Shown here piece after piece: positions 11,394 through 56,562 of a stretch of DNA of 64,000 bases. The stretch's first letter is position 1. Each line of letters starts with the position of its first letter. The position numbers and the translations under genes were made by a program. The stretch comes from Sporopachydermia quercuum (Eukaryota > Ascomycota > Sporopachydermiomycetes > Sporopachydermiales > Sporopachydermiaceae), in contig BCGN01000001.1 of NCBI GenBank assembly GCA_001599295.1, forward strand, positions 2,294,001 to 2,358,000, written 5' to 3'. The notes below the pieces were generated by a model, which was not told the origin of the DNA, made no database searches, and worked only from the letters and a program-made list of their open reading frames with translations.

Positions 11394-12402
11394 TTGATTT
11401 ATGGGAAATTGAATATATTGCTTTGGCTTTATTAATGGAGGGAACTTTTGGGTTATGTACATTCAAATCCAGAGAGTTGTGGCATATGTTTGAAACTTGT
11501 ATATATGATTCCTTTTCTTCATATTAAAATTTATACAGCATTAAGAAATATTGATGATTTATGGATGAATATTGATCATGAGATTGCAGAATTTGTTGCT
11601 GCGCGATTGTAGGGTGTAACCTGGTGTATATTAATAAGGTATTAATAATATAGGTCAACTAATATACTAACAAACACTGAAAAGGATGATCATGAGGATA
11701 TGCAAATTCTTCTGATATGGATAAGATCATGCAGATTCCGGGTGAAAATTTAGGGATATTGTTATTTAGATTCCGTTTCTTTTACTATTCCTAGATGGTT
11801 GCTTAGTTCATTCTCGTTAAACATGGATACAGCAATTGGATAAATCACATAGAGAATTACGTTGTTGTATTATCCTATGAATTGCTCATAAAACTGAAAG
11901 TATGTATACCGAGATCCTTTGGACCTACTATCATGTCATTTTAATATTAATGAATAAATAAATAATTTTTATTATATAATTATATTTCGGAGTTAAATAC
12001 ATTCAAGACATAAGTATATATCGCAAATATACGGTATCATACATACATTATAATATACAAGATCCTCAAAATTAAACCGTAAGGGTTCATAATTTATAAA
12101 ACCCAAAACTTTGTGAGAAGAAGATAGTATGTTTTTTTTGCTGTTTATTGATGTAAGTCGCGACTTTTTATATATATCAATGTCCATCCGGAAACCTGAA
12201 AACCACCCAATACACCATGTATCGTTGATATCAACTACCTTCTCCCCGCTAACTAAATTTGTTTCCACTTCTATCAGTAGCAGAACGGCTCCTGGAACCA
12301 TCTTTCTATGAATGTTATGATGAGTTACTATGTTCTTCTCCATTTCATATAGTGGTGCTTTTTTTTGTGAGTTCCTAGTCTTTTCCCTTCATGTTGATGT
12401 AT
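11394..12402. other. intergenic, COX24/PPN1 convergent
   Basis: About 1 kb between two 3' ends, AT-rich. It holds one 116-codon reverse ORF (11993-12343) with no recognisable domain; I treat that ORF as unproven. Confidence 0.45.
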
Positions 12403-14628
12403 TTATATATACCCATCTTCTAATCCAGAGCTAATAAAAGACCGCTTTATAAATAATCTCCATAATCGCTTTAGTTTCTCAATTACTTCGAGCTCAGCAT
12501 TGCCGAATCTGATAGTTTCATGATCAGCTGCTTCTAATTTCTTTATTATCTCTGAGTCCTTTGATGTAATCTCGAAATCTTCTAATGATGTTCCTTCTGG
12601 AAGATCACCAATCTTTATAGGATCAATTCCCAGCTCTTTTAGTTTGGCCTCTAGTTTCAAAGGTAATGATAGACGATTAGCAAACTCTATATAGCTTTTC
12701 ACCGTCAGGTCTGGTAAGGTATAAGGAGCATCATCCGAATTGTACTCAACCTCGTATCTAAATTCAGATTCTCCAGAGTTTACCACAGTGAGATTGCATA
12801 CGTACTGTATGTATTTAGTAGGAGTGAAAGTTTGAGGAACAAAAGCAGGTCCTAGTTTGGTTCCATTAGGCATAATCGTTGGCCAAGATTTATCCTCACC
12901 ACCTCCATTAATGGAACCATCAGAAGAATGAACCAATCCAATTTGAAATGTTTCATCATCAATCAAGTCATCATTAGCATGTTCCTGGGCGTAGAACTCT
13001 TCAAATTCTTCAAAAATGGACTCCCAATCCTTATCATACACGGAAGCCTCTACGGGCTCATTCAATTCGTTCACAAGCATTCTCTCCCATTTGCCAGATT
13101 CGGTATTCTGTCTTCTTGAAATTTTTAGTCCATCTAATCCAGTTGTGTTGTACTCATATATTCTAAATCCAGGTAAATATGTAGGTAAAATACTACTTCC
13201 GACGTTGGAAATAGAATATCTCTCGCCTAGCTTGTCAGACTTTCTTAACTTCATTTTACTATAATAGCTCTTTCTAACATTATTCATATAAGTCAGTTTT
13301 CCAGGCACCTTCTGGGTTGAAACTTCACCATCTTCAGTTTCATAATCGTTGTCAAGATTGTGAAAACCCCCAAAATATTTCAATTTCCTATACTCTTCCT
13401 CATATTCTTGAAAAATGGAGTCTAAATCGATACCATTTTTCATATCATTAATTTCAGGATGATCTTCAAACTCGTTATAAACATATTCTCTGATTTGATC
13501 AGCAGTGTTTTGGTTACCTTCAACTTCTAGTTGTTTGATCAAACTTCTGTAGGCTTTTACAGCGTCTAAAGGAGCAAAGTAATCTGTATTCTGGTGACCA
13601 AATAAGCTGCCAATGACCACGTCCCGATACTCGTATTCCCAAACAGCGAATTTTCGGACACAAGAATAATCATACGTCATTGTCAACGGAACTACATGAC
13701 CAGCCAGCCAGACTTTCATTCCTCTTGCTCTCATTATGTTCAACATTGATCCTAGCCATTCAAACAATTTATATCCTGATGACTTTCTAGAATCACAGTT
13801 ATCAACTAATGGATTAGATTTAAACAAATACAAGGTGTTAACTGAGATCACAGCAAGTTTGTTAGGTATTATAACATTGAAATAACTCACACCTCTTTGA
13901 AAGATATGGAGTTGTTCTTCAGGAATAAAATGTCTCCATATGCGATAAAACTCTCTCGTTTGCAATGTGGGACCTTCTGAGAAGACATTATGAGGAAATA
14001 CATCATTGTTACCGATAGCAGGCACAATAGGTAATTCTAATTCGAAATTATAAGGATCATCGACTCTAAACTGATCAATCAATCTGTTGGCCATAATTTC
14101 GTTCATGTCAAAGATTTTCATCTCTGTTCTAGGATATCGACGATCATTATCATGTCTAATATTATCACCTGTCCAGACAATGAAGTCTATGCTATCTCCG
14201 AGGACATCATGTATCCACTTTATAGTGTTGTCGACAAGTTGAAAAGGTGAATCACAGTCTGACAAAGCAGTACCAAACTTGCCTGCTTCTCCTGATCCGG
14301 AATGGCACTCCTCATCTGGTGATGTCCCTTTCTTGTAGTAAGGGTCAGGATGGAAATCAGTTACATGAAGGAACCTGCCATAAATAGGACGAGGATGTTC
14401 AATTGTTGAGCTGACTACCCTCTTTCTCGATGGTATAAAGGGAGGTGGATTCGAATCTGAGTATTCACGTTCTTCCTCAACCAATTGACTCAATTCAAGT
14501 ATCTTGACTTCGCTTATCCCGAACCAAGACTGCAGAGTAGGATACCCTGGAATTTCAAATCCAGCAACAGTAAAACATAGGAAACAAAAACCGAACAAAT
14601 AATAAATTTTGTTGATTTTATAACTCAT
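12403..14628 (-). CDS. PPN1: Vacuolar endopolyphosphatase
   Basis: Cleaves long inorganic polyphosphate chains inside the vacuole. The protein has 741 residues against 674 in S. cerevisiae. A hydrophobic segment at about residues 8-23 (YYLFGFCFLCFTVAGFEI) is the signal anchor of this type II membrane protein. The calcineurin-like metallophosphatase domain follows, with DFHPDPYY (D91, H93), WTGDNIRHD (GDN 154-156), AIGNNDVFPHN (206-209), LAGHVVPL and FGHQNTD, supplying the usual metal ligands. A long acidic C-terminal region comes after. The start is the ATG just before the anchor helix. No intron is needed. Confidence 0.95.
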   Translation of the reverse strand: MSYKINKIYYLFGFCFLCFTVAGFEIPGYPTLQSWFGISEVKILELSQLVEEEREYSDSNPPPFIPSRKRVVSSTIEHPRPIYGRFLHVTDFHPDPYYKKGTSPDEECHSGSGEAGKFGTALSDCDSPFQLVDNTIKWIHDVLGDSIDFIVWTGDNIRHDNDRRYPRTEMKIFDMNEIMANRLIDQFRVDDPYNFELELPIVPAIGNNDVFPHNVFSEGPTLQTREFYRIWRHFIPEEQLHIFQRGVSYFNVIIPNKLAVISVNTLYLFKSNPLVDNCDSRKSSGYKLFEWLGSMLNIMRARGMKVWLAGHVVPLTMTYDYSCVRKFAVWEYEYRDVVIGSLFGHQNTDYFAPLDAVKAYRSLIKQLEVEGNQNTADQIREYVYNEFEDHPEINDMKNGIDLDSIFQEYEEEYRKLKYFGGFHNLDNDYETEDGEVSTQKVPGKLTYMNNVRKSYYSKMKLRKSDKLGERYSISNVGSSILPTYLPGFRIYEYNTTGLDGLKISRRQNTESGKWERMLVNELNEPVEASVYDKDWESIFEEFEEFYAQEHANDDLIDDETFQIGLVHSSDGSINGGGEDKSWPTIMPNGTKLGPAFVPQTFTPTKYIQYVCNLTVVNSGESEFRYEVEYNSDDAPYTLPDLTVKSYIEFANRLSLPLKLEAKLKELGIDPIKIGDLPEGTSLEDFEITSKDSEIIKKLEAADHETIRFGNAELEVIEKLKRLWRLFIKRSFISSGLEDGYI

Positions 14629-17600
14629 TTCTGAGAGCTGAAATGTATAATCTTTCGGGGTTCTCTATAACCATGTATTTCACAAGACCTAATAGTATGT
14701 ATCTTAACCCTCTTGTACCTATTTGCTTCTCCTATGAATGAACTAAATCAGTCTTCAATTTGTTATTATTAGCTTCCTACTTCCGCTATGATAAAGAACC
14801 CTTTTCAATTACAATTAAATCTATTACTTAGACTCCTGGTATGCTATATTCCATTCAATTTTTCTATAGGCTTGTTATTGGCTTGTGGTGCGCAACAATA
14901 TCAGTAGAAAAGGAGGCTCGATGTTTGATTTGTACCGCCTTTGGCAATCGTAGGGACTAAGGGAGATAACGCTCTCATCATCTTTTCCGGATTTGATCCA
15001 GTAGAGTTTAAATTTTAATGATTAGCTGGAATTGTGTAGCATAAAATATATTAAAGTTGTATGTACATAAAGCTTTTTATGCAGAGTGCTGTGTCTCCGA
15101 GAAACTAGGTGAGAAGTTTAACCTTCGAAATGGAGATAAGAACAGGAGTAAATCATAAAGTAGCTATATACAAGGAATTATTTGATATATGAATGAGTGG
15201 AAGCTAGAAATTAAAATATCAAGAGGTGTGAAAACTTACGAGAAAGTACTGACAGTAGAGCAGTAAAGGATTTCTATGGCTCTCTGCTAAGAATTATTGA
15301 GTGTGAAGTAAAATATTAGTTAACTGTCTAGTGAATAAGCTCTAGCCCAGCAAATCTAGCTTCTAGGTAGTTTAGATGATGCAAACTATTATCATTGTAC
15401 CGTAACCAAAAGAAACATCGAACTTATCCTTGGATTCTTTATGTTGTCAGCAAAATAATGAAAATACTAAGTATGAAAATGAAATAAAATTCATTAGGTG
15501 AAACAGAGATTCAATACCCCTTTTATCTCAATTCTTACTTGCTCTGTCTCAGTTATAGTAAAGCACTTTATTTACATTTAATAAGAAAGCATAATTCTTT
15601 CACATGCCTTTCTGCCCACAAAATTACAGAATTTTAGCGTTATATATGCAACTTATATATACAAGTTAAATAGACAAGTTACTGTATAAAATTATTTTTA
15701 AATCTAACCTCCTGAAGAAAATCACAGTAATCGAACATTTGGAGAAGGAATTTAGACTATTTATCCTCATTCAGTTTCTTGATGAACATCGCTTTAAACT
15801 TTGACCTCGATCTAATTTAGCTCTAAGTTTGTCTGCAAATCGATGCATATGAAGCTTATATGCATAAAAAGGATTCAACTTCCAAATCTTAAAGTCATCG
15901 TTTCTCAAGAGAAATCAGTGAAATGTTAAGAGCATATGTATTTATATACGTAGTGTTTGTTTGAAATACAGAAATAAAATAATCATACACAACTAGGAAA
16001 AATATACACTAGACCCTGGAACAAGGCCTCACTCAGTATTGATTCAACCCATCGGTAGGGAACGGGCCTTACAAACGAAAGTTTCAGTTCATAACCTTGA
16101 GTTTCACAGCATTGACTAGACAACCCATTTGAAATATTCATTATGATCCGAATCAACAGTTTTTGATCTGGACCTTCCAGGTCTGATTATGTTTTTCCTA
16201 GAATTCGGTCAACTACATTACAATCGCTCATTATTTGTCAAAACTTGACTCCTAAAACTCGTTTGCTTAATTACTCACAGACTTCTTTTCTTGATAATGT
16301 ATATACTCAATTTAAATCAATCAAGCAAATTAATTCAAAACCATCCCAATGCGACGGTCTAGTTCAAATAAAATGGAACTTCTTGAGTCATTGCTTTCTT
16401 TTATCTAGAACAGCAGAGCCTGCGCATCTAATGCACTCAATGATTTCGTAAATGCTATCGTTAAAGTGTTATTCTTGTACAATAATGAGTCTCATTGATT
16501 CATCAATTTATTTATTAGATTTCAAAGACATTGCAAAATCCTTTTAACCCATTATCGGTATCTGATTCATTAAGAATCCGAAATCCTAGAAGTGAACTTG
16601 TACAAAGGTAATGATCTTTTGCAAATGTGGACAAGCGCTTTTCCCCAAAGTATCAAAGAAGACCTTCTTTTTACAAACAAACCATAAATTCGGTAATCTT
16701 TTTAGTCCTCACCAGTGGGAACTAAAATAGAGTATCGTGATCCACAACATCTTATTAAGGTTAGTTGAAAGCTTCATTTTCAGAAAGTTTGAAACCTTAA
16801 GTGGCACAAATGAATGGAAGGACTGACGCAAGTGGAAGTTTACTCTGTGGAGCAATTGGAAGATAGGGAGCGAGTGAATGATATCGCTTTCAATCTAATA
16901 GTAAGAATATTATAGCATTATATATAACTATTCGATTTTGGAAGCAAGAGCCAAAATAAATTGTCAGAATAGCACAGTGTGTCAACTTCAGCTCGATAAG
17001 CCAAGATTGATTGGTAAAGTGTAGATGTTGCTGTTGTAAATAATATGGTACGGTACGGGCGTAGAGGAAGACGCCGTACGAAATAGTAACAAGAGTGGTC
17101 CGAAACTTCTATATAATAATTTACTGTGAGCGTTTGCTTGCAGAATTATGAAAATCGAAAGAAATTCAAACAATCAGAATTAATTCATTCTGCATTGGTG
17201 GATGAAACTTCCACAACTTAAAAGCTCAGAATACTCGAAAAGATCGGTATAGAACCAAGTTTGGAATTTTGCGATTGAATAGTTCAATTGTCAGACCAAC
17301 TCTCGAGGTGATCACCGCTTTATTGTAGCCGTGAGAACATTAGGCTTTGATCAGAGTATCTGTAGGTACGTACTACAGCAATTTGGGTAATCGAAATCCG
17401 AACCAATCAACAAATCAACCCCTGCCACTGATCCAAATTTCCTGTTCACAATTGAAAATCATGAAGAAAGAAGTAACCCTGAAAAGGACTAAATTACCTA
17501 CTTCGTATCAGTGTACTGAAAACTTTAACTTTCTTCATCATCCACTATTTCAGTAAGTACTCCAGTAATGATGAACTATGAGAGTGGTTAATGCATTTGT

Positions 17601-20600
17601 AATGTAAAACCCAATCCACCAAGAGCCAGTTGCATTGGTCCAGCTACATACCAACCCAAGATTCTGAGCCATTATTTTTATCTATTTGATCCCAAAACTT
17701 CACATGTAAGACATTAGATGTGGTCTAGGTTTTTTTTAAGACATAGATAGCTTCTTTCAAAATTTACGGCTTGACTACTTCAGAAAGCAGAATGTAGGTT
17801 ATATGCAGCCTAATATATAATTGGAAGGAGAAAACATTATAATTTCAAATTGAATCAAGAAGTAACACACAAAATCCCAACTTAAAAGTAAGCTTTCAAA
17901 GTTAAACTTAACTAATTACTTAAAACAGAGGTTCAATATGCATTGTAATGTTCCATAAGAGAACAAAAGTGGAAATCGATTGATGTAATTGTATCTGATA
18001 TGCAATTGGTGCTTATTCGTTTTTATGGAAGAGTTTGATGTCACCAGATATAATTCGAAGGATTTGAATGTAGTCATTCCTCGTCATTTCGGCTAGATAA
18101 TTACGGAAATGATGACTTCTTGAGCTGCAGTTCCGTATAAAATCTGATGTATTAATTTGTTATTTTCATCAATATGCTGAAAGATTACAGATGGGTGTAA
18201 CAATTGTAATAAAGTTTCTATCTCGAATTTTAATAATAATATGTTAAGTTCATACCTTATGTAGGATGAACAGGAAACTACATGAAGTTACATATTATCA
18301 GGATGATGTTATCAGATAATATATGCAATATTAGGTTAAGGTTGAATCTACGTGCATGAAAAGTTATAAAGTCTAAATGATGGAATAAAGATACACCCAA
18401 ATGTGTTGAAGATATGATTATCATTCATTATATAACAAGAAAGAAGAAAGATGATAACACAAAAGTAGTATCTGTGGCTAGAGAAAGATCTATAGTATTC
18501 TATTGATCATGTTAGTCCAGACAAGAAAGTATTCAAATAGGAGGAAGTGGTTGTAAAGCGATTGAAAGGACTCTAAATTTTATATAGCTAAAAGACTAAT
18601 ACAGAAACTAAGGCTTTATTTTATATTTGTATACAAATTATTAAACTTAGAATTATTAAGGACAACGTCTCCTCAGTAGTACAATGGGATTGATTCATTA
18701 ATGAAAGATGCTTGCTGCTATAATACGAGATAGCATTCCAATAGTATCCTTGCTTTTTTTTTTTATTTTTATGCACCTTTTGTTTCATAATCCAAGGTGG
18801 TTATTTTATCCTAATTTCTCCTGATCGCGTTGTTTTCTCTTCCGTTGAGGAGAAAAAAACGCAAAGGAAAAAAACAGTAACAACTTTATATGTACACTGT
18901 TTGCTTACTTCAGCGGATTATGCAAGTGAATTATGTAAAACCACTGCTTTGATTGCACCTTCTTTCGTTTTCCAGGAAAAGAATGCACTTGAAGCCTAAT
19001 GAGCCAACAACAAAATACTAAACGTTTTGTAGGGAACCTCAAATTCAAGCATCGAGCCAGGTTTCTGGTGGTAACCATTGATTGATAGTCGCACGCTCTG
19101 ATGAATATTTTCCTCATCCTACTTTTGGATTTGCGGAATACCCATCCTATTGTTTTGTTGACGATATCTTATGCCCATATGTTTTAACGTGAGTCAATGA
19201 AGTTTAAGTCCTATGCGAACTAAAACAGATAATCCAAGAATGGAAGGAAGGGTATCAATCATAGAGATAGGTGTTCAACAGTTAAGAACTTGAGACTAAT
19301 TAAATCGTGTAACACTGGTTTACTACACGCAATACAAGATAACGAGGGAGGTAGCTGGAGAAAGGAGCGAAAACCCCTCAGAATTTCAAGGGGTAATTAC
19401 TCCTGCGGATAGTAAAAACAAAGAACAAACAAACAGAAGCAGGAGAGATGGAAACGTAATCCACTACAAAAAGAAATAGCAAGGGGGTCCTGCTAAGTTT
19501 GAAAGCAAACTTATATACATTGATGGAAATGTTAGCATTAACAGAGAATCTATTTACTAAGAAAAAGAGGTACTTTTTTGAGAAAGAAGAATGTGAACAA
19601 GAAGAACTCTCCAAAATAATTCCCCACGGTTTTATTCTACCATCATCAGATCTTTTTCTCATTGTAGATTAATTTATTCAATTTCAATTTGATCTCACCT
19701 GTCTGAAATGGTATGCTCAAAGGTACCAAAATCATTTATCATGCGAATACTATCATAAATAATGTACATAACCATATACGAAACTCTGTTTCGATCCATA
19801 ATGCATCCCAGAGATTTGACTCTATCATCATCAGTGATTTACATTTGTTTTCCACTTAGTTCATGCATGCCTCTGTGCATAGAAGAAAATGACAAAAGTT
19901 TAAACAGTCGAGAAAAATGATGAAATCCCAAACAATCCAATCCAAACAATAGTCTGGTTTCTCATCTTCTGTTCTCCTGCTTTGAAAAAAAGAAAAAAGT
20001 TATTGAAGTTGATTGTAGGAGACCTTATCATCATCAATCGTCAATAATCATTAATCAATGTTTTAATCATATTTCTACAAGAGTGATAACCGAATAATAG
20101 GTACTTCGTTCTTGTCTCGTCATGATATGATGAACATCATGCATGTTTCAACAGGCCAACCGTTGTTTATTTATATGTGCGTATTTTCTTTCGTAAGCCT
20201 TAGTTTTTAAGACTTCCCCTTCTCACGCGTGCTTTATGCGTCTTCTAAGTTGACAATGGTTTATAACTAACAGCAATTTACTTCTTGGAAAACAAGCGAA
20301 TGCAAGACTAATAAGAAAATTAATAATAACATACAAGAATCGCAAGATTGAAGTTAAAACTAACTTTGTTAGGAAAGATATCGTATACAATATCAGCATT
20401 TGGACTCGCAAGGGGTCTGACTTTAATGCCATTCTTGTTCATTCTCGTTCGCGTCAAGAACTGCCGTATACGTCAAGCATACGTCAATCAAACATTTTGC
20501 TAACTATACCAACATGTCACTAGATTACTTGGACTGGCTTACTTTAGAACTCATCCCTTTAGACAAGTTAAAATGGGAATCTAGCGAACAAGAAATTTAT

Positions 20601-21771
20601 ACGATATAAGACATCACATTACCTAATACTTAAAAGAGTTGAGGAAAACGATCAAATTATTTATTGAGATCAGAAATTGTATATTTTGATAATACAGCTG
20701 ACTTCTTGCTACTAAAGAATGTAAGCCATCCAAGTTTATTATCGTCTCACTCTACTGTGGATTCTTTCGCTTTGCTATTCTTTCTACCCAGATTTAAAAC
20801 TGGCTTTGAAATAGGTCCTAAGTGGGTTTGATATTTTAGTATAATGAAATATATTTGAAGTTCAAACAGAAGTTTAATTATTACCCAAAATTCATTCTAC
20901 TCTTAATAAAGTTACTGCTGTACGGAGAACGTTATTTTATATTTTAACCTGAAACTTATCAATCTAACTCTATTCATCCTTCAACATTTAGCACTGTTTT
21001 GCATGGTAGTCAATTCAACCAAAACCACCACTTTCAACCTACGACAGATCAATGTAATGACATTCTTGTTAAGGAATAAGATAAGCCCCTTGAGTTTATA
21101 CTTAGTAAAATATTATATCGTCTCGTACATAGTAACTATAATTGATTTTTTTGTTTTACGTACAGCCTTCTATTTATTTGTATTGCGAACAGTAGTAGAA
21201 TTACTGTTTACCTTTACGTCAAGAGGTAAAGAAGAGAGTCTAAGAGAGTTGGGGATATCTCATCTTTTCATCTACACCAAGGAAGAACCCTTTTCTTTTT
21301 CTACGTTTGATTTTCCTTTCTTCTTTTTCGTTTTCCGTTTTTCGTTTTCCATCAAGACTTTATCGAAACTTAGAGAGTTTATCGAGCTTTTATATACGCC
21401 AAAGAGCAGCTATTTTGCTTTATGTTTATGAAGTTCCATGATCTACTTCATCATTCAGAGATAACTATCATTAGTTGAGAAAAGGAAAAAACATAGAACT
21501 CACTATACCAGCGTAAAGTCATAGAAATTGCATAGTTAGAAAATTGACAACCAACAATCAACGAAAAACTTCTGAACACTTCATTTCTACCATTTATATA
21601 TTCAGCCAAAGATTCAAATGATAATAGGAAAGAAACTTTTAAACTCTACGTTAGACAGTTACAAATGTTATGCCGTTGTCCTATCTATTCGTGCTAGAAC
21701 TATATTTTAATAATTAGTTTAATAGGCATTGCTATCAAGTCAGATATAGAGACGTTCTGCATACTCTCAAA
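14629..21771. other. 7.1-kb gene-free region upstream of the velvet gene
   Basis: The longest gap in the window, between the 5' ends of PPN1 and the velvet gene. All ORFs are short and compositionally random. The largest (21003-21431, 142 codons, rich in F, L and S) lies just upstream of the velvet gene in a pyrimidine-rich stretch and may be part of its leader. Also seen are a hairpin at 17053-17079, two facing STRE-like CCCCT/AGGGG sites near 19374-19396, and a cluster of CGTCAA sites at 20452-20487. Long upstream regions are common for morphology regulators in yeasts, which fits but does not prove a large regulatory region. Confidence 0.5.
20452..20487 (+). promoter_or_regulatory. three CGTCAA sites in 36 bases
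   Basis: CGTCAA occurs at 20452, 20471 and 20482; the last two sit within the repeated phrase ATACGTCAA. The cluster lies 1.3 kb before the velvet start codon. Binding by a transcription factor is only a guess. Confidence 0.25.
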
Positions 21772-22276
21772 ATGGACGAGAGAAACAACCTAACCAGCAA
21801 TATCTCTGACATTCATATCAATGAATCAAACCATCCTACCTTAACCCTGCCATCACTATCAATGGCCCTCAATGGGTCACCATCAACAGTACAAATGTAT
21901 TCACCTAGAGATCCTTTCCCCACAGCTTCTGGAACTACGACAGCTAATGACCCAGGGATAAGAAGAATAAATCTTGGGCCAGCTCCTCTAAACAATCCAC
22001 AACTCTCACTGCCTGTACCTATATCACCACAGATAACATCTATGCATCAATCACCCACATCAGCTCTGCCAGATTTGAACAATTCCAGCATAACTCAACC
22101 ACCTACTATGCCGATTCATCTGACGTTTATTCCACGAGATAATCCTCTGATCCAACAATCTGTTATTCCCCTGCCTCCGTTTCATGTGAACGCTAGTTTA
22201 GCAGGACGAGGAATTTTCGGCAACACTGTCCCTCTACTTCGCGAGAATCATTCAATAAATCCACAGCAACAACAGC

Positions 22277-22326
<50 letters not shown>

Positions 22327-23601
22327 ATGTATCAAATAAAGCTAGGAGAAAATGAATCAAAACCGGAACCCCAAGGGAGGAATAAAAAAAAAAAAGTCAG
22401 TCACGAGGCAGAATCATCTAACGCGGACTCTTCTAACGTCATAACTAACCGCGATGAGATACCAATTTTCAAGTCTGCACAAGAAATAAGAAAACATCTG
22501 CAAAGCCATTATTTTGGATTGGAAGTAATACAACAGCCCAAACAATGCAAAATAACGTCCGCGGTTGATAAAGGTGGACTATCCGGTCGACGGACCATTG
22601 CTCCTCCACCAGTAGTGAAACTAGTTTTAACTAGGAGTACAGGAGAATCAGAAAACGTTTGGAAAGAAGTAAAATCTTTACCAAACTGGGTTTTGATGAG
22701 TGAATTTATAGTCACAGCAAAATACAGGAAAGCCGATCCAGATGGGCTCAAATCAACCACAGCTCACCGAGAATCGAATGGCAAAGGTGCTAGTGCGAAC
22801 AGAAAACATCAATCTGATCCTGCTATCAATTCCTGCCATTCTGATGTGAGCTCTTTGATAGGAGTTAGAGTATCTTCTTGCTACAAGATTCAGCGAAATG
22901 GAAATTTGGAATTAATTTTTGTATTTGGAGATTTAAGTATGTTAAGCTTGGGGTCTTTCCAACTTGAATTTGACTTAATTGAAATTCGCAATAATCAAGC
23001 AAGAAGAAGAGCTGCTACATTATCTCAACCATTTCAAGTTTACGCTGCTAAACGCTATCCCGGATCATTACCATCGACATCCTTAATTCGTCTTATCAGT
23101 AACCAAGGAGTGAGAGTTCGATTGAGAAAAGAAACCCCGAGGAAATCCAATAATGCAAATCTCTCAGATGGAATTGCTTCTCCTCCTCCTTCAGTAACTG
23201 AAAGTGCAAAGGATCAAAAATCGCAACTGAATCATCCAGTTGATAGACGTGTGAAAGAAAGATTTCAAGATGTTACCGTGAATCCTAATATCTCTCCATC
23301 TTGCGGCTGCACAGCATCTCAGATTTCTACGACTCCCCAGCATCTACCTACGGACAGATCATATATTTTAGGAACAAAAGATATTTCCCATAATCGTATG
23401 GCAGAAATTAGGGCAAATTCAGTTGGAACAAATTTATTGAATGTTCAGTATCAACAACATCAACTCCCAACACAGAATCCATTAATTCTCCCACCACTTC
23501 ATGAAGTGACTTCAGGTAGTGATCCACGCAATCACCAGAACTTTGCTCCAATCAACAATTACTCTTATCCGCTTAAAAGTTCTGATTACACAACGAAGTG
23601 A
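21772..23601 (+). CDS. Velvet-domain transcriptional regulator with polyglutamine tract
   Basis: A 609-residue protein. Residues about 245-457 form a velvet domain, the NF-kB-like DNA-binding and dimerisation fold of VeA, VelB, VosA and VelC, which link development and secondary metabolism in filamentous fungi. Matching blocks, in order, are QQPKQCKITSA, RRTIAPPPVVKLVL, IGVRVSSCYKI, FVFGDLSMLSLGSFQLEFDL, PFQVYAAKRYPG and QGVRVRLRKE. An insert of roughly 35 residues (about 320-355) splits the domain, a position where VelB also carries an insertion. The N-terminal half is Pro/Ser/Asn-rich with 21 glutamines (165-185) and a basic NKKKKVSH cluster (around 204) that could be a nuclear signal. A long N-terminus before the domain is more VelC-like than VosA-like; the subtype is not settled. 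There is no intron, and the start is the first ATG of the open frame. Confidence 0.85.
22264..22326 (+). repeat. CAA/CAG repeat coding for 21 glutamines
   Basis: An in-frame run of 21 Gln codons, mostly CAA with a few CAG at the 5' end, inside the velvet gene just before the basic cluster. Length variation between strains would be expected. Confidence 0.9.
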
Positions 23602-27343: not shown

Positions 27344-28600
27344 TTATGCGGTAGAATCCGTTTTCCTCCTTTTGTTCTGTTGCATTTCCCCTTGCTCTTG
27401 TGAATTCTCTTGGGGTTCTGCAACTTGAAGATGGTTTTCTCCTTCGTTTTCACCTTCCTCTTCGTCAGCTTCATCATCCCTATTACCATCGTCATCATCG
27501 TCGTCGTCGTCGTCAGCTTCATCGTCATCATCATCGTCATCATCATCGTCGTCATCTTCCCCCTCAATATCTATTTCTTCATCCTCTTCAATGTCTATTT
27601 CTTCGTCCTCCACTTGGGCTGCTTTTTTTGTCGCTTCTGGTTGGGCTTCATTTTTCTCGTCCGTCGTTTTTGTTTTCTCGCTCTCCGTCGTTTTTGGTTT
27701 CTCCTTAGGGTTTGCAGACTTTGGTTTCAGCACATCTTCTGTATTTTCATTTTCATTTTCATTTTCATTTTCATTTTCATTTTCATTTTCATTCTCATTC
27801 AAATTAACATTTTCACCTTCATCTTCGCCTTCGACATCATCATCTTCATCGTCAGCTTCGTCGTCCTCTTCATCTTTGCCATATTCATCTTCATCTTCTT
27901 CCTCCTCGTCCACTTCCGGTTGTTCTGGTGGGTACTCATCAGCTGGTTCGTTATCCCATGCTATATTGAATCGAGTGACTCGAGGTTTCTCAGCGAGGAT
28001 GCTTCGAACAACATGTTCTACTTGTACTTTTGCCGGTGGCTTTTCCCGTAATTCTTCTGAATCATATTCATTATTTACATAGTAACCAACTCTAACAAAC
28101 TCTCGACCAGAGTATGCACAAGAAAGGAGAATTACCGTTACTGATACTAATTCTGAAGCTGGAATGAGTTCCGGTGATGGTGGATCAGCTGTAAATAGGA
28201 ACTTATTGACACCTACCGGCACAGGTCCAACTAATATGGAGTCTAATTCTTGATCGTGATCAAATCTATTAGATAGAGATATTTGTTAGCACAGATTTCC
28301 GAAATCGTATTCAGACTTTGTTCTCAAAATCTTTGTCGTAACTTACGATGTAGACGACCCCACGTAAACCAATTTCCATTCGAGATCTATGGACTGTTAG
28401 TAGATGATACCAACAAATGAAATAAGCAGTAAATCCAACAAGTTAAGGATCAATTTTTCTTCAATAGAGCAATAGTTTAATATTTTCATACCATCTTGAA
28501 GAGGCTCCAGGCATTCAAATGTGATTTCGAATTCATATGGATCAGTAAATTTTGCTGGATTATTGAGGACCTTTATCCCTAGTAAAGAAACGATGGACAT
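27344..28600 (-). CDS. ASF1: Histone H3-H4 chaperone ASF1, three exons
   Basis: Nuclear chaperone that hands H3-H4 to CAF-1 and HIR and supports H3K56 acetylation. Exons on the minus strand are 28600-28492, 28386-28347 and 28265-27344, giving 356 residues; S. cerevisiae Asf1 has 279. The introns are 105 and 81 nt, with TACTAAC and GCTAAC branch sites and TAG acceptors. The first 155 residues are near-identical to other yeasts: [68 protein letters not shown] and [13 protein letters not shown]. The Leu of FECLE is a CTG codon. The extra length is an acidic tail with Asp/Glu runs and an Asn-Glu dipeptide repeat. The ORF-only start at 28222 would miss the two 5' exons. Confidence 0.96.
27743..27796 (-). 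repeat. hexanucleotide repeat coding Glu-Asn in ASF1
   Basis: Eight ATTTTC units plus one ATTCTC on the + strand, read as GAAAAT on the coding strand, make an alternating Glu-Asn run in the ASF1 tail. Confidence 0.9.
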
Positions 28601-32342: not shown

Positions 32343-34727
32343 ATGATGAAAGACCTAATATACTTTTATACAGCTTTTGACAAGTTTGAAATATATTTCT
32401 CAAGTATGGATTTGCTAGGGAACCAAGAAGTTTATTACGGTTCCTCTGGATGTGCTAATTCAGAGTATACTAGTAATGGCCTTGCTATTGAAGAAGATGT
32501 TGGATTGCAAGATGAAATTAGCAGATGTGAAGAAAATAGTAACCACAATGGATTCAAAGAATACGGATCAGAAAATGAAGTTGGAGGAAGAAATATGACC
32601 GGAAATCCCATGGGAAATTCTGTGGAGATTTCAATGGAAATTGATGGTTCCTCACCAAATGCAGTACCTTTTCTAGATGCAATCCACTATCAAACAGAGT
32701 CTGGAAATATCACTGAGATACACAACAATGTTTCAATCACCAGAAACGATGAAGTTTTAAACTATTCTCTTGGTTATAGTTCACATATGGATGGCCAAAA
32801 TTTCAATTCAAATGATACAACTAGAAATGTCTATGAAACACATCAGAACGTGTTTAGAACTTCCTCCTTAGAAGATAGTTTATACATGAGAGCAACAAAT
32901 ACCAACTATATAAATCCTCAAGAAGCTGAGTCGTATCAACAAAACCAAGAAATGTCTACCAATATCCAGAGTTTTCAAGAACGGTATTCTCCCACGTCAA
33001 ACATTAGAAATGAGTTTAACAATATCCAGGGTTCAGAAAACCAATTTGCAGACCGCCAACCAAACAATGTCAATGGTTATGGTTTATCTATTGATCAAAG
33101 TGCCTTCTTGAATTCCTNTCCTGGATATGATGCAAATACTCATTATAATTTAGAAGATCTTAGTATGGAAGAAAACAATCTAAGAAGTCATACTATACAA
33201 GAAGCAGAATCACATACTGGTTATGTAACTCCGAGAATTGGAAGCTCTCAAGATACAATACTCGAAATTGATACATTCTCACCTGAAGTAACCAGGAAAA
33301 CAAACTTTCAAAATGTACTGAGAACGCAAGAGTTTCAACAGAGTTATAATAACCAACGGAAGCATAAGGTAATTGCNTTTGCAAACAGAGACCAATATAT
33401 AAACAATCATAGTACACGCTCAACTAGAATGCAAATTGGAAAATTGCTACCAATATCAAGAAGAACAATCAGTCCTAACAGTAACAAAAGTTCAACAGCA
33501 TCTCCTGATATAACGAGAGATATTAGACTTGGAAGTTTTGATTCAAGCAATCTTTCGGAAGATTCATTGTCGACTGAGAATATTATTGAATTGGGAAAAA
33601 CAATTAATAACAGCTATCAACGAAATCTTCAAGCTCTTGCAAGCAGTTCTATGAATCAAGTATCAAGTCAGAAACGCAGTAACAGTGACAGTTGTGTTAT
33701 CGTAAATAGAGTTAGAAGTGGTGCAACAATTGTTGAATTAAATGAGACAAAAGAAGAAAAAGGAGAGACGGCTGGTAGAGATTCCAGAACACTATCCGCA
33801 GCAAATCAACAAATTGAAACTGTGGATCCGGCAGTATCATTCGAGACAAAAAGCTTGAGTGAACAAAGTAACCATGAAATGATGAAGCTAAGACAAGAAG
33901 AACGAAAGAATGGCCTATTCATTGGAAGTGGAATTCTATTCGAAGTTTGTCACGATGATTGGTTCAACTTTGCATTGCAACCCACTGATATTGATAAATT
34001 GGCAGAAGCTTTAGAAGATGAGTCTGAAGTAGCACAGCCACTTACATGCATATGCGGAAGACATTTTTGTAAAATAAAGAAAGAGACTGTCAAGGGTTCC
34101 CCATGTTTTAATAATGGAATTTGTCAATGCCAACATGCTGAACATCAAAACCTTGCAAATGAACTCAACATTAAAAAAAAGACGGAAGAAAGAAGAGCAA
34201 AAAAGTCTTCCTCTCCAGAAAGTAGAAAATCAAAAGTGAATAAATTGGAAAAGAACATCTCAGCTAAAAAGAATAAACAGATATGCGTTAAAGGCTGTCC
34301 AGCCTGTGAAAAGAAACGTCTTACATTCTTAAAAAGAGGTCATGGTTTGGTTAGCGTTGTGTATGATCATGAGATATATCTTGGTGAGGATTATAGAGAA
34401 AAACCACTGCCAATAGTTAAGCTTGGATATGTATTTGGTTCAACAAATTGTCGAAATAAGTTAGCTTGGACAAGAAGGTCCACCGAAGAAGTCAAGAAAG
34501 AACGATTAAGAAAAGAAAAAAAAGCCACAATGGGGAGAGACGAATCAAAAGACTTAGAAACTTCCGCAAAGAATGACATAGCTGGAAAAATGTCCAAATG
34601 CCCAACAAATTCAGAGATTGCTAGATTTTCAGAAATTTCAGAACATTTCGAAGATTGGGGAACCATAGAAGTCGACCAAAGTTTGGATGAATTTACCGGA
34701 ATTCATAAATCCAAGAACAAAATATGA
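32343..34727 (+). CDS. uncharacterised protein with Cys/His cluster
   Basis: A 794-codon frame; an internal ATG at 32406 (MDLLGNQEVYYG, giving 773 residues) is an equally likely start, because the first 21 codons lie right behind a pyrimidine tract. I do not recognise the protein. The first 500 residues are Asn/Ser/Gln-rich and probably disordered. After residue 510 it looks folded: FIGSGILFEVCHDDWFNFAL, then a cysteine/histidine group CICGRHFC (569-576), C-x5-C-x-C with nearby HAEH, and CVKGCPAC (648-655), spacing that suggests zinc binding. Between them is a Lys/Glu-rich linker. The block YDHEIYLGEDYREKPLP and a basic EEVKKERLRKEKK helix follow. Two codons contain N. A nuclear or RNA/DNA-binding role is conceivable but not shown. 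Confidence 0.75.
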   Translation: MMKDLIYFYTAFDKFEIYFSSMDLLGNQEVYYGSSGCANSEYTSNGLAIEEDVGLQDEISRCEENSNHNGFKEYGSENEVGGRNMTGNPMGNSVEISMEIDGSSPNAVPFLDAIHYQTESGNITEIHNNVSITRNDEVLNYSLGYSSHMDGQNFNSNDTTRNVYETHQNVFRTSSLEDSLYMRATNTNYINPQEAESYQQNQEMSTNIQSFQERYSPTSNIRNEFNNIQGSENQFADRQPNNVNGYGLSIDQSAFLNSXPGYDANTHYNLEDLSMEENNLRSHTIQEAESHTGYVTPRIGSSQDTILEIDTFSPEVTRKTNFQNVLRTQEFQQSYNNQRKHKVIXFANRDQYINNHSTRSTRMQIGKLLPISRRTISPNSNKSSTASPDITRDIRLGSFDSSNLSEDSLSTENIIELGKTINNSYQRNLQALASSSMNQVSSQKRSNSDSCVIVNRVRSGATIVELNETKEEKGETAGRDSRTLSAANQQIETVDPAVSFETKSLSEQSNHEMMKLRQEERKNGLFIGSGILFEVCHDDWFNFALQPTDIDKLAEALEDESEVAQPLTCICGRHFCKIKKETVKGSPCFNNGICQCQHAEHQNLANELNIKKKTEERRAKKSSSPESRKSKVNKLEKNISAKKNKQICVKGCPACEKKRLTFLKRGHGLVSVVYDHEIYLGEDYREKPLPIVKLGYVFGSTNCRNKLAWTRRSTEEVKKERLRKEKKATMGRDESKDLETSAKNDIAGKMSKCPTNSEIARFSEISEHFEDWGTIEVDQSLDEFTGIHKSKNKI

Positions 34728-49374: not shown

Positions 49375-51122
49375 TTACAACTTTTCTAATTCATCCAAAA
49401 TAGCCTTGGTGAATTGTTGAGTAGAGGAGCTACCACCCAAATCAGGGGTTCTGACTTTACCATCAGCAATTACCTTGTAAACGGACTTAGAGAGTCTATC
49501 AGCATATTCGTCAAGACCCAAGTGACGCAACATCATAGAAGAAGATAAAATCATAGCAGTAGGGTTAGCACTACCTTTACCTTCAATGTCCAAACCAACG
49601 TGTCTGCAACCAGGTTCGAAAACAGCGTGTTCACGTCCAATGTTTACACCAGGAACTAAACCAGGTCCACCAACTAAACCAGCACCAATGTTAGATAAAA
49701 TAGTACCGTACAAGTTAGGTGTAACTAAAACGTCAAATTGTTGAGGCCATGAGACAGCTTGCATAGAAGCGTTATCAACAATCATATCATTAACATCGAT
49801 ACCGGGATAGTCTTGACCAACTTCCTTAATGGTAGATCTGAATAAACCATCAGCTAACTTCATAATGTTGGCCTTGTGAATGGCAGTAACCTTCTTTCTG
49901 TTGTTCTTTAAAGCAAAATCAAAGGCAAACTTGGCAATTCTTTCAGACTTGTACTTAGTGATGATCTTTAATGATTCAACAACACCTTTGACTGATTGAT
50001 GTTCTAAACCGGAGTATTCACCTTCAGTGTTTTCTCTGATCAAAACCATATCAATATCGTTCAAACGAGTCTTGACACCAGGAATGTTCTTAATTAAAAC
50101 CAATGAGGCAAAGATGTCCAATTGCTTTCTCAAAGCAACGTTGAATGAAACATGGCCGGCTTTTTCCACAGGGGTATGTAAAATACCCTTTAAACCAACC
50201 TTGTTTCTCTTTAATGACAAGATAGCGTTGTTAATCTTTTCGACGTCCTCTTCGAAACCGGAAACGTCGTGTTGTTCAAAATCAATTGGAATATTTTCAG
50301 CTTTGAATAAAGTCTTGACGGAATCAGTAATTTCAGCACCAATACCATCACCAGGAATCAAAGTAACAGTGTATCTGCCACCATACTTTTTTGGTTCGAA
50401 AACATCAGTANCAGTGGCAGTGGCCATTGATCTTCTAGCCAAAGGGAAAGATCTAACAGAGGTCTATGGGATTATGTTAGTAAAATTTAACATGAGCATC
50501 AATTAAATATTCTAAATAGTTTGCAGCTTCAAGACTTGATTGCAAGGTTCAATGAGTTTCTACAAATAGGATTCAGAAATCTGTTGATAACATGACACAG
50601 CAGAGAACGATGACAGTATTGAATTTCAATAAGTTTTCATTGATCCATCAACAATTGATTGAAAATTACGTTGTGCAAAACGCTTGAGTGTTTAGTTGAT
50701 TGTTTCTGATCGACTCCTCCTGTTTGATCGGAAAATTCGGAAACAACGATCAATCCTTGATAATAGGGTAGGTATCAAACAGATCACAGTTGATCCAATC
50801 ATTAATCAATTAAATACACATCACTCGCATATCCAGTACTTTATTAATACCACATCTATAACCAATAGCAATGATTGAGCCTCGAGATCAAGAAATTTTA
50901 TAGTTTTCTAAATCGTAGTCTCCTTAACATTTGATCCCCCTTAACATTCTGATACAAATTCATCCCGACTCTTATTTTGTGTTCCTCCAATCAAAATCAT
51001 ATCAACCTCAACCTCATCTGCCACTCTGATTTCCAAGTTGAAATCGAATTCATTTTCGCCGAGCGTCCATCATAATCAACACTTCTTTTCATACATACCT
51101 TAGTCAAAACAGTTCTCAACAT
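49375..51122 (-). CDS. IDH1: NAD-isocitrate dehydrogenase subunit 1, two exons
   Basis: Regulatory subunit of the mitochondrial NAD-dependent isocitrate dehydrogenase of the TCA cycle, partner of Idh2. Exon 1 is 51122-51099 (MLRTVLTK). After a 635-nt intron, exon 2 is 50463-49375, beginning TSVRSFPLARRSMATAT. Together these give a convincing Arg/Ser mitochondrial presequence and 370 residues (360 in yeast). The branch site TTTACTAAC lies 12 bases before the TAG acceptor, and the donor is GTATGT. Motifs include KKYGGRYTVTLIPGDGIGAEI, LKRNKVGLKG, IRENTEGEYSGLEH, VTAIHKANIMKLADGLF, IVDNASMQAV, LYGTILSNIGAGLVGGPGLV and LGGSSSTQQFT. It sorts with Idh1 rather than Idh2 by overall match. One codon near residue 26 has an N. 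The spliced start is inferred from signals. Confidence 0.94.
50464..51098 (-). other. 635-nt intron of IDH1
   Basis: By far the longest intron placed in the window; the other twelve are 66-132 nt. It interrupts the presequence after codon 8. A 60-codon frame inside it on the + strand looks like chance. I looked for C/D-box snoRNA signals and found none I would defend. Confidence 0.8.
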
Positions 51123-54100
51123 AGTATCAATTATATCAACTGGGACAACGAAATGTCTTGTATATAATCAGAATCAAAGGTATTCGACGATATCAATACA
51201 AGCTACAAGGATTCACTATACTTAGTAAGCAAATTCCAAACAATTCATCNAGAGATATACTTCAATATATTTTTTTTCTTGTAGTCTTTCATCTTTGTTT
51301 TTCCCCTATCTCGAGTTATAAAGAGAAAGAACTGTTTGTAAAGGAGAATGAAACCTCATAGTTGAGGGAAAACATCCATTACAAGACGGACAACCAATTG
51401 AGGATGTCACGGGAATAAAGTTTCGAGGTATGATAAACTTAATTGGTGTATATAGGTTCCGTACTGTCCGATGAAAAGGGGGTAGTATAAAGACATTTGG
51501 TGATGAGTTCTATTGCAAGTAAGAGGGAGAATACCATGTGCAAGAACAAACGAGGTTGAGAATGTATACGAAATGCAAGTTTAGATGAAGATGCAGATGG
51601 ACTAGGGATGGGTGAGTAAATTTCTGACTTGAGTGAATAATGGAAAAGCTATGAAATATATTTGGAAGTGAGGATAATAGATGGTTAAACGTTCTCGTAG
51701 ACAGAAAACGGNTGAAATTAGATATTTGGGGTGAAGTTTGTGATTAATATGTTATTACAATAATCAATGGCATAACAATAGATGAAGAAGTGATAGTAGA
51801 CTAAATATCGCTGTATGCGTATGCAGTACAGTGCAATATTCATGTATACAGTTGAAATCAGGTGAATAAAGGGTATTTCCGNTGCCCGGTTACCGGATAT
51901 ATTGGGGCTTTATGAATGATTGAGTAAGATAATAAGACAGAAAATGAACATAATACGGCAAGCATAGCATGCAAAACAGGTGTTAGTTTAATGTACTGTT
52001 ATGTCAGAAAGGAATGGCAACTAGCGTAGCTATCTATGTATGTAGTATCGAGACTCCGTGATCACCTGGTGAATCTATCTCTGTAGAGTAGATCATAAGC
52101 TCANTAATAAAAACCTTTCAATTCATTATGAGTCTCGGAAAAACAATTTGAGATTCAATANAAAAGTAAAAACCGTTGCTGATAGCTATTATAGTTTTCA
52201 GAAGAGTTAAATCTCAACGCGAATAAAACTAGAAGTAACTCCTTGAACTTTGGCTGGTTCTATAGTTTACATACTTACACGTTACCATGGCCGACACCGG
52301 CTTAAGGATACAAGTAAGTGTATTGATGGACAGTGAAGGAAATTCAATTGATTATTGAAGATAATGAAGAAGATAAATAAATGAATAATTGAAAAATAAC
52401 TTAAACTAGTTCTTCGGTCTTTATCAGCAACTGGAGCGAAACATATCTCCATCATTCTCAATTGATCTTTATTTTTTTCTGTTGATTGTCATGTTCCACA
52501 ACTGTATGTACATTTGTTCCTTCCATGCTCATCCTAAGCTACTAATGCAGGTTTTATCACTCAATTTTTATACAGTTGGTATAGTTTTTGAAATGCCTTT
52601 TCTTCTTTATTCTCCTATCGCCCCTCTTCACTCTTACTTACCTGTGCTTGAGCTATTATTATATGTCTCATTCATGATCCGAACAATCCACTGAAATCCC
52701 GGAGATCGGAAATTATGAATTACTACAGGACCTCAATTTCAAGATCGAAGTCATAATGCGATTACGGTAAATTTTTAGTCCCATATCGGGAGAGCCAATA
52801 CAATACCTTTAAAGTTTTCTCGAAGCGAAACTTCAAAGTTGGAGAATTCAAATTAAGGAGACTGAAGTGAGATTTATTGTTTTTCATAGTCATTTANAAT
52901 CTGCGCTTTTGGCTATCTGAATATTGAAAATGAAAGATGGAGAGTGCATAAATAGATCAGTCAGCTGTAAACTGTGGTTAAGTTGTCTTGTGAGGGTAAA
53001 GTTGTCATTTGATTTTGATATTCAAAGGCCTATCATATCGAGTTAACAAGTCATTAATTATTAATTTACTCTTATTCCCAAGCAATTCATAATGAAGCAG
53101 CCAAAATGATAGTTCAAGAGGGATTCTAGTAACTCTGGCCAACTACGAGGATAACTCATATTGAAACAATATTTACAACAGAAGTTAATATGTTGATATA
53201 CCAGAACGCAATTCACTTAGAGGGTCACCAACTGCAACATGTTTACTTCAAACAATTAGTTCCTTGTTCTGGTAAATTCAGGTATCATAAATTCCCGAAA
53301 GACTGTATTAGCAAGGTCTACGTCCCCTAACAACATTCAATGCTTTTGAGAGAGGGAGGCTATCTGAAACATAGCAGAAGTGATTAGAAGGAAATATTCA
53401 ACTGCTTGGTTTTGATCTGATTATAAATTCAAATGATGGATCTATAGTATTGGCTTCGAGAAGCTTCGCAATAAATAGTTTAGTTTTCTTTTTTTACTTC
53501 TTTCTTTTCTATCCAGCTCTTGCCANNAGTAATAGATGAGTTTGGGCATTAGTTCATAATAACAAGCTAGGCAGATTCTAAGCTCTAGGAGTTAATTTTA
53601 AGCGAGTTGTTTCAACTAGTTGAATTATCGCCCCTAAACTATTTCAAGCGCCATTTAAGCTCTCTCAAACCTTTCATCAGTGAAGCCTTTCAGTGTTTGA
53701 TGTTTATGCTGTGCATGGGAGTGGAGGTGTTTTGCAATAGTGTTTTCGTAAGTGNCGACAAAACTGTTTGCAGGATAGCTTTTCAACTCCAAGTNACGTA
53801 TGGCTCAATTGCGATAAAGCTTAGAATAATTGCTTACTATATGATACACTATTTTAAAGAAGATTTATAGCGCAAGAAAAAGTTTAGTTGATCCTTAATC
53901 TTAAAAGCTTTTGGTTCAAAAACTCTCGAACATTTGTTACCTTAAATACTTCCACCTTTTTGCTTTCAATGGCGAATGGCTTCTGTTTATGTGATGATTT
54001 TTTTGATCTCAATTTCAATAGACTTTCACAAATTAAATTGATCATCTAACCCTTGGCAAAAGCTCGTCTAGTTTTTTTTGGCAAGAATTTGTATTCTTTC

Positions 54101-56562
54101 TTGGAAAACATAGTAGCCCATTTACCTTTCTGAAATTCCCTTTCAAGTATTGGACAGAATATCGATCTTTCTCAGTCAAAGCCAAAATGTAGTCTCTTTA
54201 ACAAACTTGTTCATCTAATTTTGAATCGTAGTTGTTTACAGAATACAAACCACTATGCATTCTTTGCTCTATTGACGATACTTGAAAATAAGATCTGTCA
54301 ATTGAGTTCGCACTCTGTTTTCTCATGTCGTTCGAAGTCTTTGGGGAAATTCAAACTCAAAAATGAGACGTTAAGAAATATATCAATCCATTCGTACGTA
54401 TGTATATACACAGCAAAGCAACTCACATCTGTAGAATTATCCATTGTTGGGAAAACTAATATCGAACGTTTCTGTTTTCACTTATGCATTCTGCTGAATT
54501 GAGAGTTTAATAATCTGACATTGAGCAGCTTTTCCTAATAATAAATAATTCTACAAGTTATCATGAACTTACAGTTTCTCAAAAGGTTTTTTGTAGAGAG
54601 CATCGGCTGAATGTCGATCATTGACATTACTATAATAGTTGTCCACCAATTATAATCCCTCCAGTTAGACTTCAAAATATTTAAAGTTTGCGAGATAATA
54701 TGTAATTAACCAAAACTAAAACCTTATTTGCCTTCTATGTATAGAACCGTTGAAAACTGTAATGTACAGAAGAGAGAGCGAGATTAGCAGAGTGTCCGTC
54801 AAATGAATTGTTAGCAGGTTTTTGAAGTAAATGAACAAAGGATTGAATGAGAACCCGAATGTTCTCAAGAATCAAAAACAAGAAACTCAAAAGTATTTGT
54901 GAGTGTTTTCAGCTAAGATTAAAGTGCTGATCTGAAAGTATGAGTTTTTCCAATTATCCAGTTAATAATCGCTGATGAATGGCAATTCAATCCGAGGATT
55001 ATAGATTTGACTGAGTTGAGACTGAATCTCAAATGACGAAGATACTATTTGACAGTTTAAATAAAAGGATAGTTTAGATTAACAGCCCATTTAGCCTCAG
55101 GTCGTAGAGTCTATTGCTGCTAAATTATTATATGAATTGCCATGTAAGGATCGAACCAATATTACATGTATCTATCTATATGGTCTCAGATCTATAGAAT
55201 CAATTGATATAATAATATAATTCATAGATACAGTTATATTTAACTAACTAATAATAGAAATAATAATTTATTATATAGTATCATAAAATGATTTTAATAA
55301 TAATAATCTCGTCAGTTCCCAATAGGAATCGAACCAGAATAGTTCATGGTCAGTGGAATTTGATAGTTAAAATGTATATTTACAGTATTAATTGCCTATG
55401 TAAGTTCGAATCAAAAATCAATCCCCATCCATGTAAATCTTCACAACAAGTTAATCAACTGGCTGTGAAGAAAATAACTACTAGAATAGCTGATAATTGT
55501 TTATCATTTACCTGAGACTATCGAAACCTCAAAATGAAAACCCAATTCCAACCTGCCAGCAAAATAAATAACCGCAAATGAAAAAGGAATTGTCAAGTCA
55601 TTCCTCAGTTATTACTATCAGCAAAATATGACACCAAAACAACTACTCAGTAACTGGTCTAACTCCATTCTTTCTGAATTGGGCAGATAAATAATAATTT
55701 CGTGATATCAAAATTACCAAAGTATCATATCAGTTTTATGAAACATTCATAGCCTGTGGCTTGTTATGAGGATACTATTGGTTCACTAATAAAATTAAAT
55801 AACTCTTTCACTATATTTTTGGGCATGAACTCAGTATTGACGTCTGTTTGTAGAAACCAATTCGAAGCCATTAGCTTTCTTCGATTTAAGTGACTCGAGG
55901 CTATTAGTGCCAACTTTGATGGGATTGAAAGAACTTCTAAGTATGGTAAGGATGAATTCAAGGAAATTTAATGGAGCAAAGAAAGGACGGAAAGAACGAC
56001 AATGAAGTTACTATCCCTCTCTGAGTGATGGCCATTAAGCGTTCGCAATACTCGTTATGGACATCACATCTCTTCTGTAAGGTTCCTAATCTTGTTAGAG
56101 TACTATAATTGAGAATCGCAAAAAGAATTCTACGGTGCTTTTCTTATTATCTTACGGAAAAATACGTTGACTAAACTAATAAGCACTAAACAATCATTTA
56201 TAGATTCTTATCAGATCTCTTAGCAACTTCTTCTATTCGTGATTATGGTCTGTACTCCTACATCGGCATCTATAATACTCTTTGCAAACCTGATCAGTGA
56301 TAATGAACTCACCGATAGAAGTTTCAAGATTATATAATCAGGAAGTTAGCTTATGTCATCTCACACCTTCACACCCGTTGGTCACGTGTGTGTAACAAGC
56401 TCAAAATAGAAAGCCGAGCTAATGAAATAAAAATATTATGTTAAGTTGAATATAGTCAAAAGAAAGAACTCATTAAATAGGAGAAGCTATTGATAGATAC
56501 TAAGATATAGAAAGCCATAGTTTATAGTTTCTGGTACTCAAAATAAATAATCAAGTAGCAAG
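51123..56562. other. intergenic, IDH1 to FMC1, 5.4 kb
   Basis: A long divergent gap with several N and only short random ORFs (longest 93 codons). The part at 55180-55300 is extremely AT-rich. Three sequences resembling a tRNA B box lie at about 55150, 55333 and 55403, none with a foldable T arm. A CACGTG box sits before FMC1. Confidence 0.45.
56393..56398. promoter_or_regulatory. CACGTG E-box upstream of FMC1
   Basis: Sequence GTCACGTGTG, 165 bases before the FMC1 start; TCACGTG is the preferred Cbf1 form. Regulation of this mitochondrial gene by Cbf1 is inference. Confidence 0.45.

Follow-up and report, generated by a model that had tools for sequence, protein, structure and literature searches.

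A Velvet-Domain Gene in a Yeast-Like Genomic Context of Sporopachydermia quercuum: Probable Inheritance from an Ancestral Ascomycete

Introduction

A stretch of 64,000 nucleotides from Sporopachydermia quercuum (contig BCGN01000001.1, positions 2,294,001 to 2,358,000; hereafter the window) contains, at positions 21772-23601 of its + strand, an open reading frame (ORF) for a velvet-domain protein. This raises the question of whether such a gene belongs to a budding yeast at all and, if it does, to which velvet subtype its product should be assigned and whether that product could still act on DNA. The collected evidence argues with good confidence for a native velvet transcription factor of budding yeasts (Saccharomycotina), inherited from an ancestor common to this group and the filamentous ascomycetes, and a VelC- or VosA-type protein is the most likely assignment.

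A sequence-only reading of the same DNA had noted that velvet proteins are generally described as absent from S. cerevisiae, C. albicans, and relatives; a general absence from yeasts is contradicted by reports from some Saccharomycotina. Four velvet clades were described in this group in 2024, with 31 Sac-VeA and 32 Sac-Tap-VelB proteins in Table 2 of that study (PMC10845976), and 12 velvet genes had been reported in 2016 from the budding yeast Saccharomycopsis fibuligera (PMC5106798). According to the 2024 study, the Saccharomycotina ancestor is inferred to have carried velvet genes that were lost in most lineages; the other proposal of the sequence-only reading, a retained ancestral regulator, agrees with this published view. 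Familiar yeasts lack the family, but it is on record for a minority of other yeasts, and therefore the present gene extends existing knowledge modestly and is not surprising. Because a 2026 review continues to describe Saccharomycotina as lacking the family (PMC13006574), an unambiguous counter-example has its use, although published work has already corrected the point (PMC10845976, PMC5106798). Moreover, a yeast that retains velvet offers a simple host for asking what the family did before its loss in most yeasts, and the gene adds a data point on the timing of that loss.

Family Membership and Protein Layout

The ORF comprises 609 codons and a stop codon, begins with ATG, and needs no intron; its frame is open from 21718, directly after a stop codon. 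The product matches the Pfam Velvet profile PF11754 with 111 bits (cut-off 25; E=1.2e-31) over residues 250-454 and covers the profile nearly end to end (positions 3-236 of 237). A match of this score and E-value is not due to chance. In a phmmer search of Protein Data Bank (PDB) sequences at E<=0.1, three distinct sequences were recovered, all of them velvet proteins: VosA (49.1 bits), VelB (44.1 bits), and VeA (31.9 bits). The blocks PPPVVKL, FVFGDLS, PFQVYAAKRYPG, and QGVRVRLRKE, which had been proposed as ordered velvet blocks, are all contained in the translation in that order, and the Pfam scan suggested as a check of velvet identity returned the significant match given above. At the level of sequence, the product is confirmed as a genuine velvet-family protein. 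Apart from velvet, Pfam gave a single match at E<=0.01, to TFIIA, which lies below its threshold (24.9 bits, cut-off 36.2) on a Q/P/S-rich region (residues 69-231) and was rejected as compositional.

Velvet relatives were not confirmed in collections of viral contigs, bacterial and archaeal genome contigs, and plasmids; since these collections are not known to include fungal genomes, the blanks there are uninformative on fungi. PF11754 was found in none of 14 control genomes, a result that does not prove absence.

The protein begins with a low-complexity extension rich in Q, P, S, and N (residues 1-249; 21772-22518), which is probably a disordered regulatory or activation region; P, Q, S, T, G, and N make up 55% of residues 1-235. 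It contains a run of 21 glutamines encoded by CAG and CAA codons (residues 165-185; 22264-22326) and a basic KKKK cluster (residues 205-208; 22384-22395), a possible candidate for a nuclear localization signal. The velvet domain itself spans 205 residues, with its midpoint at 58% of the protein length. Alignment with VosA, VelB, and VeA divides it into a DNA-binding region (residues 250-286; 22519-22629), a variable spacer of 75 residues (287-361; 22630-22854), and a dimerization region (362-454; 22855-23133), the latter two parts corresponding to those described for the family (PMC12077163). A low-complexity tail of 155 residues follows (455-609; 23134-23598), and the same six amino acids account for 50% of residues 459-609.

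In the published survey of 4,999 velvet proteins, the variable region between the DNA-binding and dimerization parts ranges from 0 to more than 400 residues and measures 40-60 residues in 47% of them (PMC12077163). The present spacer exceeds 40-60 residues yet lies well within the full range, so it calls for no special explanation. The sequence-only reading had pointed to a long N-terminus and a domain insert that match none of the Aspergillus subtypes exactly. Both features are real (249 and 75 residues). The insert is the variable region known in the family (PMC12077163), and a long N-terminus ahead of a late domain has been published for A. nidulans VelC (PMC3938535).

DNA-Binding and Dimerization Residues

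Velvet proteins are reported to form dimers and to contact DNA through an NF-kappaB-like domain (PMC3876986). In A. nidulans VelB, the arginines R71, R80, and R81 were found essential by mutation (PMC13389560), and the counterparts of R80 and R81 are kept in the alignment as R273 and R274. For VosA, single alanine mutants at the loop-A residues K37, K39, R41, and K42 are described as poor DNA binders (PMC3876986); three of these, K39, R41, and K42, are aligned with K, R, and R. The motifs QQP, RR, and PPP are also retained within residues 250-286. Both residues reported as critical for VelB dimerization, G240 and L331 (PMC12077163), are preserved as G364 and L438. Since the binding and dimerization residues are mostly kept, the product is likely a working transcription factor, as far as its sequence can tell.

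Such a factor would enter the nucleus; the C-terminal half of its velvet domain would mediate dimerization, and a basic loop in the N-terminal half would bind the promoter DNA of its targets. A regulatory or activating role could fall to the long Q-rich N-terminus and the C-terminal tail. By analogy with other velvet factors, the protein may adjust decisions in development, for instance on hyphal growth, sporulation, or the tolerance of stress.

Subtype and Mode of Action

The four Aspergillus types differ in layout, and the VelC layout is the nearest; A. nidulans VelC, together with the published Sac-VelC clade, would be the closest known counterpart. A. nidulans VelC is described as a protein of 524 residues with its domain at 252-501 and motifs 1 and 2 approximately 100 residues apart (PMC3938535). 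It thus shares with the present protein a long N-terminus, a domain starting near residue 250, and a sizable spacer (~100 versus 75 residues), a likeness of published layout on which a VelC-like subtype is placed first as a best guess. VosA (PDB 4n6q) has a velvet domain with 30% identity and the top phmmer score of the three PDB proteins; however, its own domain is N-terminal (crystallized residues 1-190) and its spacer is shorter. The short N-terminal domain of the VosA subtype, for which a mean length of 166 residues is given for Pez-VosA (PMC10845976), is not the arrangement seen here. VeA (PDB 9i2s) shows 29% identity, but its domain match starts at approximately 26-32 of the crystallized chain, and the VeA-type arrangement, a domain near the N-terminus followed by a long C-terminal part, differs from a domain match that starts at residue 250. 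These identities, and the block counts below, are rough because the VelB and VeA reference sequences were pieced together and are incomplete.

A diverged member of the VelB or VeA clade, with a gained N-terminal extension and a spacer that is the counterpart of the VelB disordered insert, is the strongest competitor and has a real, though clearly minor, share of the probability. VelB and VeA clades are reported to predominate among Saccharomycotina velvet proteins (PMC10845976), and among the velvet proteins of A. nidulans, VelB alone is described as carrying a disordered domain within its velvet domain (PMC12614781). VelB (PDB 4n6r) also has 31% identity and an extra stretch that separates the DNA-binding and dimerization parts, and the DNA-binding block is slightly nearest to it (14/36, compared with 11/36 for VosA and 13/39 for VeA). 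In contrast, block 2 is slightly nearest to VosA (18/49, compared with 14/49 for VelB and 14/48 for VeA); block 3 is level (19/44 for VosA and VelB, 15/33 for VeA). The VelB domain starts near residue 57 of its chain rather than in the middle of the protein, and its 99-residue insert is reported to be rich in P, Q, G, Y, and S (PMC3876986), which make up 28% of the present spacer, where S, K, and A are commonest.

Several observations weigh against a VelC- or VosA-type protein that works as a typical velvet factor. The identities to VosA, VelB, and VeA are level (29-31%) and separate no subtype; in the comparison by blocks, the distance to each of these three mostly exceeds the distances among the three themselves. 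In the published layout, A. nidulans VelC ends 23 residues beyond its domain (PMC3938535), compared with the 155-residue tail seen here. In the alignment, the counterpart of VelB R71 is K260, a conservative change at a position where arginine is usual but not universal (85% of 4,999 sequences; PMC13389560), VosA K37 is aligned with V, and the DNA-binding loop is four residues longer than those of VosA and VelB. The window contains no VosA-type site (TGGCCGCGG or TGGnCCGCGG), and its sole CCGCGG, at 22559, lies inside the velvet coding region. Furthermore, a Rel-like beta-sandwich fold is not confirmed by the models: two single-sequence predictions reached a pLDDT of 35 and 53, too poor for comparison with VosA/VelB, and a Foldseek search with the second gave 828 PDB matches at E<=10, none of which reached E<=0.001; the 50 matches listed include no velvet chain.

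Some of these features would fit a stand-alone homodimer that operates without VeA-VelB-LaeA partners, using a polyglutamine activation arm, as the minimal circuit left after the losses in yeasts. Its DNA specificity could be altered, because a lysine replaces a key arginine and the DNA-binding loop is longer. Such a specialized arrangement is improbable. A somewhat smaller chance is given to a degenerate protein without DNA binding, acting only as a dimer partner or not at all. The replacements of R71 and of K37, together with the change of CG in the VelB loop to TS, speak for it; the uninterrupted 609-codon frame and the retention of PPP and of the equivalents of R80, R81, G240, and L331 speak against it.

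Genomic Context and Origin of the Gene

A velvet-type transcription factor native to a budding yeast implies that the surrounding scaffold is that of a yeast. The sequence-only reading had called the neighbors budding-yeast-like, and four lines of evidence agree with this. Among 20 ORFs of the window scanned with Pfam, 16 have a family match: the velvet gene and 15 neighbors, which encode an RSN1-type channel, FAD monooxygenase, SUN, DUF2722, SHQ1, COG6, GH15, carbonic anhydrase, isocitrate dehydrogenase, ASF1, NOT2/3/5, AAA_18, COX24, a diphthamide synthesis protein, and an LYR-like protein. The first line comes from ASF1 (27344-28600, minus strand, two introns), approximately 4 kb downstream of the velvet gene. 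Its spliced product aligns over 166 residues with the best PDB chain, 1wg3, with a single one-residue gap and 320.8 bits, which supports the splicing. The top 15 of the 32 PDB chains listed score 302-321 bits, and we take them, including 1wg3, to be S. cerevisiae proteins; lower scores were obtained for 7xay_C (250.5 bits), 5zba_B (249.5 bits), S. pombe Cia1 (224.2 bits), and ASF1A/ASF1B (~200 bits). The chain 5zba_B is presumably from Aspergillus fumigatus, for which a literature search gave no confirming paper. The isocitrate dehydrogenase IDH1 matches 3blw/3blv best (507 bits, compared with 370 for the next), scores that do not separate a yeast from a filamentous origin because no filamentous-fungus IDH was noticed in the list. 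Carbonic anhydrase was also considered as a lineage marker and set aside as uninformative, its best PDB chain being 1ddz, presumably a red algal protein.

The second line is the introns, which were positioned by eye from conserved protein sequence and splice signals. Seven were placed in three genes, ASF1 (2), DPH1 (3), and NOT2 (2), and a further one is likely ahead of the IDH1 reading frame. All seven run from GT to AG with an nnnTAAC branch site close to the AG, exactly TACTAAC in three, a count that is not independent because the splice signals themselves guided the placement. Third, the SHQ1 ORF has 7 CTG codons and the final exon of DPH1 another 4. Nine of these 11 fall within alignments, where their counterparts are L (3), I (3), V (1), M (1), and K (1); serine and alanine do not occur among them. 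Saccharomycopsis, by comparison, belongs to a CTG-serine group, so that S. fibuligera differs from the present case in its code as well as in the dozen velvet genes reported there. Fourth, composition is uniform: GC is 0.325-0.375 in 4-kb steps with no break around the velvet gene, whose GC at third codon positions (GC3) of 0.286 lies inside the range of the 15 neighbors (0.264-0.364). From the ASF1 affinity, branch sites, CTG pattern, and composition, the scaffold is best read as that of a standard-code, relatively intron-rich budding yeast, which is well supported. The proposed early-diverging position is plausible and can be reconciled with CTG read as leucine and with genes that have several introns each.

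These data bear on two further explanations of origin. If a yeast had recently acquired the gene by horizontal transfer from a filamentous fungus, this would account for the patchy presence of a family absent from most Saccharomycotina genomes (PMC10845976). Such a transfer is nevertheless quite unlikely: GC3 matches the neighbors, vertical descent is simpler given the published Saccharomycotina velvet clades, and identity to the Aspergillus proteins is just 29-31%, which excludes only a recent transfer from Aspergillus. Least likely of all, and very improbable, is a scaffold that derives from a filamentous fungus or is a contaminant or chimera, because the low gene density, several introns per gene, and GH15 glucoamylase that suggest it may also be shown by filamentous yeasts, whereas the ASF1 scores, the yeast-type branch sites, and the unbroken composition around the velvet gene oppose it.

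Other Features of the Window

A 7.1-kb stretch (14629-21771) that separates the velvet gene from its divergent upstream neighbor contains no recognized gene and is the longest gap in the window as read from the ORF map. It could possibly be a long promoter; since other gaps reach approximately 6 and 4 kb, it is weak evidence of a complex one. The longest ORF there (20910-21428), the only one scanned in this stretch, has no Pfam match, and neither have 12406-14628, 32343-34724, and 11996-12388, the other three of the four unmatched ORFs among the 20; the product of 12406-14628 presumably resembles the endopolyphosphatase Ppn1. No tRNA or Rfam match was found in the window.

A comparable stretch of approximately 6 kb adjoining IDH1 (50500-56550) contains no gene recognized on the ORF map, its short ORFs lying outside the Pfam scan, and the first IDH1 exon may fall within it. 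Gene density of the window is low for a yeast. In ASF1, a conserved core of approximately 155 residues is followed by a C-terminal tail that is acidic, very long, and marked by runs of NE and of D/E; the DNA of this tail is a cluster of short tandem repeats. The ORF at 32343-34724 encodes 794 residues without a Pfam match at E<=0.01 and bears the cysteine-containing motifs CICGRHFC, CFNNGICQC, and CVKGCPAC in its last third. A glucoamylase-type GH15 gene at 57316-59115 suggests that the host uses starch or glycogen. Finally, 31 N bases (29 isolated and one adjacent pair) all lie within 30435-57980 of the window, and this scattering may reflect masked ambiguous positions in the assembly of a heterozygous strain.
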